Positions 17,589 through 39,879 of a stretch of DNA of 46,202 nucleotides are shown piece after piece. The stretch is taken from positions 1-46,202 of the forward strand of contig CACJFE010000007.1 in the NCBI GenBank assembly GCA_902592655.1. Direction: 5' to 3'. How positions within the stretch are numbered: position 1 is the stretch's first letter; every line of letters starts with the position of its first letter. Source of the stretch: an uncultured Pelagibacteraceae bacterium (GTDB taxonomy: Bacteria > Pseudomonadota > Alphaproteobacteria > Pelagibacterales > Pelagibacteraceae). Below the pieces are notes generated by a model. That model was not told where the DNA came from and made no database searches. It saw nothing but the letters and a program-made list of their open reading frames with translations. Made by a program: the position numbers and the translations under genes.

Positions 17589-18347
17589 CTAAAAATTGTC
17601 TTTTAAATCTCTTAATTTTGAAAAAACCTCATCTTCAGAAGAGTTATTTAGATTTAATGATCTTTTTATAATTGGGTCATCACATCTCAAAAATATATTA
17701 GTTTTAATTTCCTCTCTAATAGTTGTAGGAACAGTTGGCTGACTATCTTTTAATTTAGTTTTAATTTTTAACATCTTCTCTTTTAAAAAAAAATTTTTTG
17801 AGTCGTATTTTAGGCAAAAGTCTAAATTTGATTTTGTATATTCATGACCACAATAAATTTTTGTCTCAGAAGGCAGATTTTTAATTTTATTAAGCGACTT
17901 ATACATTTCCTTTTTAGTACCTTCAAAAATTCTTCCGCATCCCAGAGAAAATAAAGTATCTCCGGTAAAAACAACTTTTTCTTTAGGAAAAAAAAAAGCG
18001 ATATGACCTTTGGTGTGACCAGGTGTAAAGATTACCTTAAACTCTAAATTTCCAATTTTTTCCGTTTGGTTTTCTTTAAGAATAATATCAATTCCGGGAA
18101 TTCTATCTTTATCTAAATCAAAACCTATAATTTTTGAATTATATTTTTCTTTGAGTTTTAAATTACCGTCTACGTGATCGGCATGGTGATGAGTATTCAA
18201 TATATAATCTAACTTATTATATTTTTTAATTATTCTGTCACAATTATTAAACTCTGAAGGATCAATTATTGAAACAGTATTTGTTTCTTTATCAAATATC
18301 AAGTAACTATAATTATCATTTAAACATGGAATTATTTCTATAATCAT
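17589..18347 (-). CDS. gloB: Hydroxyacylglutathione hydrolase (glyoxalase II)
   Basis: GloB hydrolyses S-lactoylglutathione and completes methylglyoxal detoxification. The 252-residue protein is a metallo-beta-lactamase fold with the metal motif THHHADH at 52-58, FTPGHTKGH, FTGDTLFSLGCGRIFEGT, and CGHEYTKSN. The C-terminal helical half fits the glyoxalase II substrate domain. It starts 1 base after metW, so it is the last gene of a metX-metW-gloB operon and should fall under the SAM-II riboswitch. Confidence 0.92.
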   Translation of the reverse strand: MIIEIIPCLNDNYSYLIFDKETNTVSIIDPSEFNNCDRIIKKYNKLDYILNTHHHADHVDGNLKLKEKYNSKIIGFDLDKDRIPGIDIILKENQTEKIGNLEFKVIFTPGHTKGHIAFFFPKEKVVFTGDTLFSLGCGRIFEGTKKEMYKSLNKIKNLPSETKIYCGHEYTKSNLDFCLKYDSKNFFLKEKMLKIKTKLKDSQPTVPTTIREEIKTNIFLRCDDPIIKRSLNLNNSSEDEVFSKLRDLKDNF

Positions 18348-18348
18348 T

Positions 18349-18957
18349 TTATCCTATTAAAAAAATACCTAGTTTTGAAAAAAGATTTTTTATCTCTAAG
18401 TTACTTCTTTTTATTAGTGAAGTTTTATCTTCATTAACACCAATTGCTTTTTTAATATTCATATTTTTCTCATCGCAAAAATTAAATAAATCTTTAATTG
18501 TACACATATGTAAATTAGGCGTATTATACCAAGTATTTGGTAGGGTTTTTGTGACCGGCATTTCGCCAAAAAATAAAAGTTTTGTTCTTACTTTCCAATA
18601 ACCAAAATTTGGAATTGAAATGACTACGGACTTTCCTATTCGTAAAAGTTCTTTCAAAACTTTTTCAGGCTCATAAAATGCTTGAAGCGTCTGACTTAGA
18701 ATTACATAATCAAAAGATTGATTTGGGAATTGGTGTAATTCTGTTTCAGCGTTACCTTGTATAACTGGTAACCCTTTATTAATACATTGTTGAACATTAT
18801 CTTGATTAAGTTCCAGACCTCTTACCTCTATATTCTTGTCTCTGTTAAGTAGATTCATTAAAGATCCATCACCACAACCTACATCTAGGACTCTAGTATT
18901 GTTTTTTAATAAATCTGCAATTACTTTAAATTCTTTTTTCATTTTTAAATTTTTCAT
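18349..18957 (-). CDS. metW: Methionine biosynthesis protein MetW
   Basis: MetW is a methyltransferase-fold protein that partners MetX in proteobacteria; published work on the family links it to MetX activity. The 202-residue protein has the SAM-binding motif I VLDVGCGDGSLMNLL and the MetW signature FDYVILSQTLQAFYEPEKVL. The first ATG (18957) lies inside the metX 3' end, giving a 32-base overlap. A second ATG at 18942 gives MKKEFKVIADLL and fits the usual family length better, so the start is uncertain. Confidence 0.92.
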   Translation of the reverse strand: MKNLKMKKEFKVIADLLKNNTRVLDVGCGDGSLMNLLNRDKNIEVRGLELNQDNVQQCINKGLPVIQGNAETELHQFPNQSFDYVILSQTLQAFYEPEKVLKELLRIGKSVVISIPNFGYWKVRTKLLFFGEMPVTKTLPNTWYNTPNLHMCTIKDLFNFCDEKNMNIKKAIGVNEDKTSLIKRSNLEIKNLFSKLGIFLIG

Positions 18958-20065
18958 ACATAGTGTTAATAAAACCTTTTAAAGTCTTTAAAAATTCCGG
19001 CTCGTTAAGCAAAAAAGAGTCATGTCCTTTATCAGTTATTATTTCAGAATATGAAACATCTGCACCCGAGGCGTTTAATGCTATTACAATATCTTTATTG
19101 TCTTTTGTTGTGTAAAGCCAATCAGAGGAAAACGATATAATTAAAAACTTTGTTTTTTGATTTTTAAAAGCTTCTACGAGACCACCTTTAAATTGTTTAG
19201 AAAGGTCAAAATAGTCCATAGCTCTAGTTATATAAAGTATTGAGTTCGCATCAAACCTTTCGACAAAAGCATAACCCTGATGTCTCAAGTAACTTTCAAC
19301 TTGAAAGTCCGCATTAAAACTAAATTCATAATCTGCTTTTTCTTGTAATTTTCTACCAAATTTCTCTTGCATCCCTTTCTCAGATAAATAACTGATATGC
19401 CCCACCATTCTCGCTACCGCTAATCCATTTTTTGGCTGCACATTTTTTAAAGCGTATTTTCCATTATCCCAAACTGGATCTGCCATGATTGCTTGTCTAG
19501 CTAATTCATTTAAAGCTATATTTTGTGCACTATGACTTGAACTACAAGCAATCGGAATAGCTGAAAAAGTTTTATCTGGAAATGTTGCGCAAAATTGTAG
19601 TAGCTGCATTCCTCCCATAGAGCCCCCTGTTGCGCATAAAAGTTTTTTAATTCCAAAATGATCTAGTAATGATTGCTGTGCACGGACCATATCTTTAATT
19701 GTTATAACTGGAAACTCTAATCCATAAGGCTTATTTGTATCAGGATTTATATTTCTTGGTCCAAGTGATCCCATACAACCGCCAATTACATTGGCACATA
19801 TTACAAAATATTTATTAGTATCTATGGCTTTGCCGGGACCAACTGCAGTTACCCACCAACCCTCTTTATTAGTTATAGGATTAATACCAGTTACAAATTG
19901 ATCCCCTGTTAGTGCATGGAATACTAAGATCGCATTATCTTTATTATCATTTAGAGCACCATAGGTTTCATATGCTAATGGGAAATTACTAATTGTCTTT
20001 CCACAATCAAGTTTTAGTGGTTCAGAAACGTCAAGTCTCTTAATATTTTCAAGTTTTGCACTCAT
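18926..20065 (-). CDS. metX: Homoserine O-acyltransferase MetX
   Basis: MetX acylates homoserine (acetyl, or succinyl in some members) at the start of methionine synthesis. From the ATG at 20065 the protein has 379 residues. It is an alpha/beta hydrolase fold with AYETYGALND, FHALTGDQFV, the nucleophile in GGSMGGMQ (about Ser149), and a C-terminal Asp-His region (SFSSDWLYTT, DKGHDSFL). An in-frame ATG at 20095 would add ten residues encoded by the terminator hairpin. I prefer 20065 because the family N-terminus starts there, but neither start has a well-spaced ribosome site. Expression is controlled by the SAM-II element upstream. Confidence 0.93.
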   Translation of the reverse strand: MSAKLENIKRLDVSEPLKLDCGKTISNFPLAYETYGALNDNKDNAILVFHALTGDQFVTGINPITNKEGWWVTAVGPGKAIDTNKYFVICANVIGGCMGSLGPRNINPDTNKPYGLEFPVITIKDMVRAQQSLLDHFGIKKLLCATGGSMGGMQLLQFCATFPDKTFSAIPIACSSSHSAQNIALNELARQAIMADPVWDNGKYALKNVQPKNGLAVARMVGHISYLSEKGMQEKFGRKLQEKADYEFSFNADFQVESYLRHQGYAFVERFDANSILYITRAMDYFDLSKQFKGGLVEAFKNQKTKFLIISFSSDWLYTTKDNKDIVIALNASGADVSYSEIITDKGHDSFLLNEPEFLKTLKGFINTMYEKFKNEKRI

Positions 20066-20067
20066 CC

Positions 20068-20093
20068 AAAAAAAAAGCCCAGCTAAACTGGGC
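20068..20093 (-). terminator. Intrinsic terminator between the SAM-II aptamer and metX
   Basis: On the minus strand GCCCAG, a 5-base loop TTTAG and CTGGGC are followed by nine T residues, a textbook intrinsic terminator. It lies between the aptamer and the 20065 start codon, so terminated transcripts would not contain metX. Seven bases (TTTAGCT) of the loop and 3' arm are complementary to AGCTAAA of the aptamer, which gives a plausible antiterminator. Confidence 0.8.
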
Positions 20094-20095
20094 AT

Positions 20096-20148
20096 CCCCT
20101 TTTTAGCTACATTTATTATGCGCTTGCAATATGGTTAAATCAGCGCGA
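20096..20148 (-). ncRNA. SAM-II riboswitch upstream of metX
   Basis: The minus strand has the SAM-II consensus in order: GCGCT opening the P1 stem, loop GATTTAACC, TTGCAAGCGC closing P1, an A/T-rich linker with AATAAATG, then GTAGCTAAAAAGG, whose GCTAA can pair with TTGC to form the pseudoknot with one bulged U. From memory it differs at only a few positions from the crystallised marine metX SAM-II RNA. SAM-II binds S-adenosylmethionine and lowers expression of methionine genes in alphaproteobacteria. Here it heads metX-metW-gloB. Confidence 0.93.
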
Positions 20149-20152
20149 TTAG

Positions 20153-20181
20153 TGTTTACTAAATCAACACAAACTTGTCAA
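20153..20181 (-). promoter_or_regulatory. Promoter of the SAM-II/metX transcript
   Basis: On the minus strand a perfect TTGACA (20181-20176) is followed by a 17-base spacer and TAAACA (20158-20153, a weak -10). The predicted transcription start falls just before the first base of the SAM-II aptamer, as expected for a riboswitch leader. Confidence 0.55.
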
Positions 20182-33473: not shown

Positions 33474-33507
33474 TAAACGCCCTTTTTATTCTGTAAAGAG
33501 GGCGTTT
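33474..33507 (+). terminator. Intrinsic terminator after the polycation gene
   Basis: ACGCCCTTT and AAAGAGGGCGT pair across a short loop with one bulged base, followed by TTTTTTATT. It ends the plus-strand mini-gene unit and lies immediately before the convergent carD stop. In the carD direction the trailing T-run is poor, so it is mainly a plus-strand terminator. Confidence 0.8.
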
Positions 33508-39850: not shown

Positions 39851-39879
39851 GGCCCAATATTTCTTGGGCCTTTTTTTTT
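39851..39879 (+). terminator. Intrinsic terminator between TAXI binding protein and permease
   Basis: GGCCCAA (39851-39857), a 6-base loop and TTGGGCC (39864-39870) are followed by nine T residues. It is a strong terminator 25 bases after the binding-protein stop and 23 bases before the permease start. Partial read-through would give much more binding protein than permease. Confidence 0.92.

Follow-up and report, generated by a model that had tools for sequence, protein, structure and literature searches.

We consider it quite probable that a SAM-II riboswitch in the metX leader of the DNA analysed here (a stretch of 46,202 nucleotides, below called the window) controls the gene through transcription attenuation. 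The leader consists of an aptamer, an intrinsic terminator and, overlapping both, an antiterminator; terminator and antiterminator are two mutually exclusive folds with predicted energies, and both folds are conserved among relatives. In the proposed mechanism, RNA polymerase would begin transcription beside the aptamer. With SAM bound at the time GCUAAAAAGGG leaves the polymerase, this nascent strand would be locked in the pseudoknot, the GCCCAG...CUGGGC terminator would form, and the polymerase would halt in the U9 tract (OFF), 2-10 nt short of the start codon of metX. In the absence of SAM, UAGCUAAA would instead pair with UUUAGCUG around a GGG/CCC helix, both terminator arms would be taken apart, and metX-metW-gloB would be transcribed (ON). 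A reading made from the letters of the window without database searches (the sequence-only reading) had suggested such a switch. The mechanism fits the fold energies and the comparative data described below, and its predicted parts are SAM binding by this copy, termination in response to SAM, the promoter and transcription of the three genes as an operon.

All features of the leader are on the minus strand. A -35 promoter hexamer, TTGACA (20176-20181), is followed after a 17-nt spacer by a putative -10 element, TAAACA (20153-20158), which would put the RNA start at the edge of the aptamer. The hexamer is found shortly upstream of the aptamer in 93/93 SAM-II metX leaders of the family; the TAAACA element is not among the 60 matches listed by a promoter scan. 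The 52-nt aptamer (20097-20148) contains the P1 stem GCGCU/AGCGC with its loop (20120-20146) and, at 20097-20099, a GGG that is part of a Shine-Dalgarno (SD)-like AAGGGG. Three nucleotides (G-AT) separate it from the intrinsic terminator hairpin GCCCAGU-UUA-GCUGGGC (20077-20093), whose arms are GCCCAG (20093-20088) and CTGGGC (20082-20077) and which runs into a U9 tract (20068-20076). The hairpin and the aptamer are thus where the sequence-only reading had placed them, at 20068-20148. Only GG stands between the T9 and an ATG at 20065-20063 (AUG2), so that the hairpin ends 11 nt 5' of this codon, and there is no SD directly 5' of it. A translational reading would call for initiation at another ATG (AUG1, 20093-20095), 30 nt before AUG2. 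We place the start of metX (homoserine O-acetyltransferase; 18926-20065; NF001209, 508 bits against a cut-off of 331) at AUG2 from sequence comparison. The gene is followed by metW (18349-18957; TIGR02081, 233 bits, cut-off 189.5) and gloB (hydroxyacylglutathione hydrolase; 17589-18347; TIGR03413, 293 bits, cut-off 200.8). Because metX and metW overlap and the gap between metW and gloB is 1 nt, the three genes likely form an operon.

The identity of the aptamer rests on several observations. With cmscan, positions 1-79 of the Rfam model RF00521 (SAM_alpha) match 20156-20082 with 25.5 bits (E=7e-4, 351 bases searched), and the P1 stem, the GAUUU loop block, the UUGCA block and the GCUAAA strand are all present in the order of the consensus. 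The gathering score of the model is 36 bits, which is a curator's threshold rather than a biological trait; a default Rfam scan is silent at the metX leader because its score is lower. None of the RF00521 matches in the genus that we label g1 reaches 36 bits in a search of 61 genomes, and even the two genomes that carry a published SAM-II RNA letter for letter (loci L022 and L023) score 34.1 bits. The leader also belongs to a methionine/SAM gene, metX, with metW next. With three mismatches to a printed 52-mer whose SAM binding is described in the literature, this copy would be expected to bind SAM as well. The minimum free energy (MFE) of the single sequence is not significant (z -1.16).

The two folds compete for the same strands. 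As an isolated hairpin, the terminator has a predicted energy of -10.8 kcal/mol, against -13.0 kcal/mol for the antiterminator. In the latter, UAGCUAAA (20102-20109), which is also the pseudoknot strand of the aptamer, pairs with UUUAGCUG (20080-20087), which comprises the terminator loop and the start of the 3' arm; this outer helix has seven Watson-Crick pairs and one U-G pair. It encloses an inner helix between GGG (20097-20099, part of the SD-like run) and CCC (20090-20092, within the terminator 5' arm), so that 11 pairs in total take up both terminator arms. The complementarity of AGCTAAA and TTTAGCT had been pointed out in the sequence-only reading and is confirmed; the outer helix it described is real, and its antiterminator was incomplete in that the GGG/CCC helix had been missed. 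When the growing leader is folded prefix by prefix, the antiterminator is the MFE structure from an RNA 3' end at 20083 to one at 20069, and once the whole U-tract is out, an extended terminator becomes the predicted minimum. The ON state must therefore be kinetic. This suits a decision made during transcription, yet it is also a weak point of the attenuation model. The decision window would also be very short, because only 3 nt lie between the 52-mer and the hairpin. Holding the aptamer strand single-stranded makes the terminator form in the calculation; this constraint is a proxy for the SAM-bound state, as the folding program does not treat pseudoknots. The leader thus has two of the features expected of an attenuation riboswitch: an intrinsic terminator between aptamer and start codon and, by predicted energies, an exclusive antiterminator that uses an aptamer strand.

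The complementarity between aptamer and terminator at metX is more than chance, as a control on the same genome demonstrates. A strict scan for hairpins followed by a T-run, on both strands of 446,202 bases (47%) of the genome, gave 15 matches. Two of them are in SAM-II leaders, those of metX and metY, and both carry UUUAGC. Among the other 13, some of which are a single hairpin detected on either strand, one (the T-rich match at 33478) reaches a complement of at least 7 to the aptamer strand of the window, and in a mock leader stable pairing with the aptamer core was seen for none. Under relaxed criteria, the matches outside the SAM-II leaders number 31; among these, the complement (to the same strand) is at least 6 in four and at least 7 in two, with stable pairing in one. 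A previous control on 80 metX-centred loci was discarded and replaced by this one, as it sampled one neighbourhood in many genomes. Within the window itself, the other strong hairpin-plus-T terminators are the one at 33478 and one at 39851-39870, the latter read on both strands.

The metY leader (L203 1380-1700; G000:C3, about 137,600-137,950; TIGR01326, 575 bits) is the other SAM-II found in the genome. It is a tandem of SAM-II and SAM-V (72 bits), the known bi-mechanism arrangement of SAR11; tandem leaders of this kind were reportedly described by Poiata in 2009. Like the metX leader, the SAR11 tandems join SAM-II to an intrinsic terminator; unlike them, the metX leader has a single aptamer and no SAM-V. 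The SAM-II terminator of metY is built on a different stem (ACCACCG/CGGUGGU) with CUUUAGC in its loop. Eight tandem relatives reduce to six distinct segments; by sight, seven of the eight precede a metY-like gene and one (L045) a homocysteine-methyltransferase-like fragment. In 6/6 distinct leaders of this metY type, with complementarity scored against the aptamer strand of the window rather than each leader's own, the antiterminator is predicted at -16.0 to -17.4 kcal/mol and the terminator at -7.4 to -10.0 kcal/mol. The outer antiterminator helix has nine pairs in the identical relative L047.

Conservation was examined in sets of leaders collected in different ways. The RF00521 search of 61 genomes (the window's own included), which involved no selection on the downstream part, gave 57 matches. 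Four of these (L050-L053) were left out as not SAM-II by sight; in 53/53 of the rest a hairpin and a T-run come next, and three kinds of stem occur. Scanning named genomes with a sequence pattern gave 115 stretches; the 80 titles listed are all Pelagibacteraceae, Pelagibacterales or Candidatus Pelagibacter, so the window is probably of SAR11 type. A search with the MetX protein found a match in 105 of 118 genomes of the family, and 102 leaders were read; eight match rows were left out of the 102, namely one fragment without its N-terminus and seven distant homologues (32-34% identity). SAM-II with a terminator of the present type occurs in 59/102 leaders (19 in g1, 19 in g281, 16 in g282, 4 in g284 and 1 in g286), and the terminator with T[AG]GCTG is retained in all 59. 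These five genera thus offer no case of what the sequence-only reading had named as refuting it, namely relatives without the terminator and the complementarity; elsewhere, SAM-II stands without such a terminator in 34/102 (8 in g5, 18 in g6, 2 in g285 and 6 in g289). The other 9/102, all in g283, have no SAM-II.

The 59 leaders represent 36 distinct segments. In 36/36, the antiterminator pairs at GCUA are standard. The loop bases U8 and A9 are free in the terminator and paired in the antiterminator; their pairing is kept in 36/36, with U8 always U and A9 an A in 35 and a G in one, where a U-G pair remains. The loop base adjoining them varies (U in 25, C in 8 and A in 3). Energies were calculated for 34 distinct segments; three g281 leaders whose spacer is longer, and which count towards the 36, are not part of this set. 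In 28/34 the antiterminator is the more stable of the two folds, and in 25/34 it is the free minimum; in 6/34 the terminator, taken by itself, equals or exceeds it in stability. Variation in the antiterminator pairs is one-sided (U-G/C-G, U-A/U-G), and compensatory double changes, which the sequence-only reading had proposed to look for in relatives, do not occur in the 36 distinct segments. In the sister family f2, scored against the aptamer strand of the window rather than each leader's own, 9/10 distinct segments have a complement of 7 or more and the MFE structure is the antiterminator in 1/10.

These data also bear on the idea that the terminator simply lowers metX expression whatever the SAM level, the complementarity to UUUAGC being incidental. 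In its favour, terminators in g1 vary very little, 9/34 distinct segments have a free minimum other than the antiterminator, and the terminator of Sinorhizobium meliloti metA strongly limits expression in both media tested (PMC9373788). Incidental complementarity, however, would not account for the loop pairing specific to the antiterminator that every distinct segment keeps, for the same complement on the different stem at metY, or for the lack of such stable pairing at the 13 other strict terminator matches in 446 kb. We hold constitutive attenuation to be highly doubtful.

Another alternative is a translational switch, in which SAM binding would draw the SD-like AAAAAGGGG into the pseudoknot and so prevent initiation, and the hairpin would be only coding sequence or incidental. 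PMC6061858, PMC9373788, PMC10907184 and PMC12434664 treat a near-identical metX RNA in this way. AUG1 is in frame with metX here, in 38/42 near-identical copies (three lack AUG1 and in one it is out of frame) and in 12/19 g1 leaders, so far in accord with this reading, which likely stems from the position of AUG1 just after the G-run. Occlusion of an SD, however, implies a start codon properly spaced after it, and no spacer lies between the G-run and AUG1. An in-frame ATG at this site is present in only 13/59 family leaders with the terminator, and AUG2 is therefore the start that the family can share. A separate set of 36 distinct strings, selected on this terminator and not the same as the 36 distinct segments above, divides as follows: ten have an in-frame ATG, two have GTG or TTG, three have an ATG that is in another frame or is cut off by a stop codon, and the other 21 lack an upstream start. 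Moreover, two of the four g284 leaders have lost the SD-like run (AAATG, AAAGC) and kept the terminator. Judging from the more distant relatives, AUG1 is unlikely to be the metX start despite its frame in the near-identical copies, though it could be used in the closest relatives. A purely translational switch is accordingly improbable in our view.

Attenuation may still be combined with translational control, and a second layer of this kind is possible because the hairpin is 11 nt from the start codon. A precedent is S. meliloti metA, where the parts have the same order as at metX (aptamer, SD-like run, AUG1, terminator, AUG2), and where, according to PMC9373788, AUG2 is used and requires the SD in the aptamer. 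By analogy, the metX leader might add initiation at AUG2 from an SD at a distance to the attenuation proposed here, which would agree with the missing SD directly before AUG2. Against this, the SD-like run is not present in every relative with the terminator, and we think such a dual switch, which overlaps with the attenuation reading, less likely than not. The control logic at metA also differs, because no SAM-II-driven antiterminator could be predicted there, unlike at metX here; S. meliloti metZ resembles metX in its SAM-dependent terminator, which the same source predicts.

Transcriptional SAM-II riboswitches as such are not new, and the novelty that the sequence-only reading saw in a stand-alone one does not hold. 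Corbino 2005 (PMC1273637) already reports many SAM-II with putative intrinsic terminators, Barrick & Breaker 2007 (PMC2258182) links SAM-II to terminators, PMC6061858 regards most SAM-II as transcriptional, PMC9481103 describes SAM-II terminators in tandems, and PMC9373788 predicts the SAM-dependent terminator of S. meliloti metZ and validates a terminator behind the metA aptamer. As in the terminator-linked SAM-II of other Alphaproteobacteria, an intrinsic terminator stands between the pseudoknot and the gene at metX, with OFF logic, and pairing is possible between the P2 strand and the 5' arm of the terminator. The 30 best-scoring loci of the class were compared, of which 26 could be parsed and 18 have a hairpin and T-run; if the first such hairpin is taken, although at some loci another may be the functional terminator, the complement to the P2 strand is at least 6 in 13/18 and that to the core GCUAA is at least 6 in 2/18. 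As modeled, the metX layout is a variant: the P2 strand contributes just the 3-bp GGG/CCC helix, and GCUAAA of the SAM-binding strand forms a further, outer helix with the loop and the 3' arm of the terminator. A related system is the transcriptional preQ1-I riboswitch, in which the 3' strand of a very compact H-type pseudoknot is likewise involved in deciding on termination; the two are alike in how pseudoknot and terminator are used and differ in ligand and sequence.

The variant matters for a much-studied RNA, a relationship that the sequence-only reading, correct on the SAM-II class, had missed. PMC8494917 prints a 52-mer as 'SAM-II-WT-RS', and the aptamer of the window is identical to it at 49/52 nt and belongs to the same gene. 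Among the 169 genomes of the window's genus, the printed 52-mer occurs exactly in two, with the same terminator and AUG2; one is the isolate AG-914-J05 (contig CACIWZ010000003.1). We take the printed 52-mer to be, letter for letter, the RNA of PDB 2QWY, from a Sargasso Sea metagenome. Copies with at most three mismatches are found in 42/169 genomes, one in each, the window's included. In 41/42, GCCC[AG]GTTTAGCTGGGC and T9 or T10 follow, with an ATG downstream; the remaining copy has a single loop change (ATTAG) with the same stem and T9. Where the 52-mer occurs in genomes, AUG1 is one base away from it and the terminator hairpin three. A 46-nt part of the 52-mer had no match in the viral contigs searched. 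PMC12434664 describes PDB 2QWY as a 52-nt SAM-II riboswitch and PMC13226088 as the metX SAM II.

The canonical metX SAM-II RNA is thus mostly treated in the literature as translational, with its SD in the aptamer, whereas its natural genomic context here has a terminator and an antiterminator. By homology, the attenuation reading would apply to it too. We lean, with some reserve, towards the view that the textbook translational SAM-II (metX, PDB 2QWY) is an excised piece of a SAR11 switch that acts by transcription attenuation, and that its partner without SAM is an antiterminator capturing the SAM-binding strand rather than a ribosome on an open SD. PMC5069961 states that SAM-II at bhmT and metX of Candidatus Pelagibacter ubique affects transcription; in the open-licence literature searched, as far as its accessible text extends, we found no publication naming this terminator for the metX SAM-II RNA. 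If this view is right, a model RNA studied by crystallography, smFRET, NMR and simulations has been read with the wrong regulatory output: SAM binding would compete with a specific 11-pair antiterminator, not with access of the ribosome, and the pace of transcription would be the scale against which to judge affinity and kinetics. More generally, the leader would illustrate how SAM-II attenuation may persist in AT-rich SAR11 genomes although the P2 strand is minimal, the strand that binds the ligand being drawn into the antiterminator.

Other arrangements before metX were seen in the same family. The g283 leaders (L255, L269, L281, L282, L284, L287, L289, L291 and L300) lack SAM-II in 9/9, and by sight the upstream sequence of several looks coding, which would fit a move of metX into a different operon. 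The g5 leaders (L257-L259, L266, L270, L275, L286 and L298) and g289 leaders (L249, L262, L272-L274 and L283) have an AT-rich hairpin between the SD-like run and the ATG and no long T-run; by sight, the hairpin looks as if it bridged SD and start codon. In the g6 leaders (L252, L254, L256, L263, L278-L280, L285, L288, L290, L293, L295-L297, L299 and L301-L303), SAM-II is followed in 18/18 by a T-run without a GC hairpin. A box, CTCACAATTC in 15 of them and CTCTCAATTC in three, is complementary to GAATTGCGAG of the aptamer in 18/18 and is possibly an anti-aptamer strand, which would make this a different expression platform.
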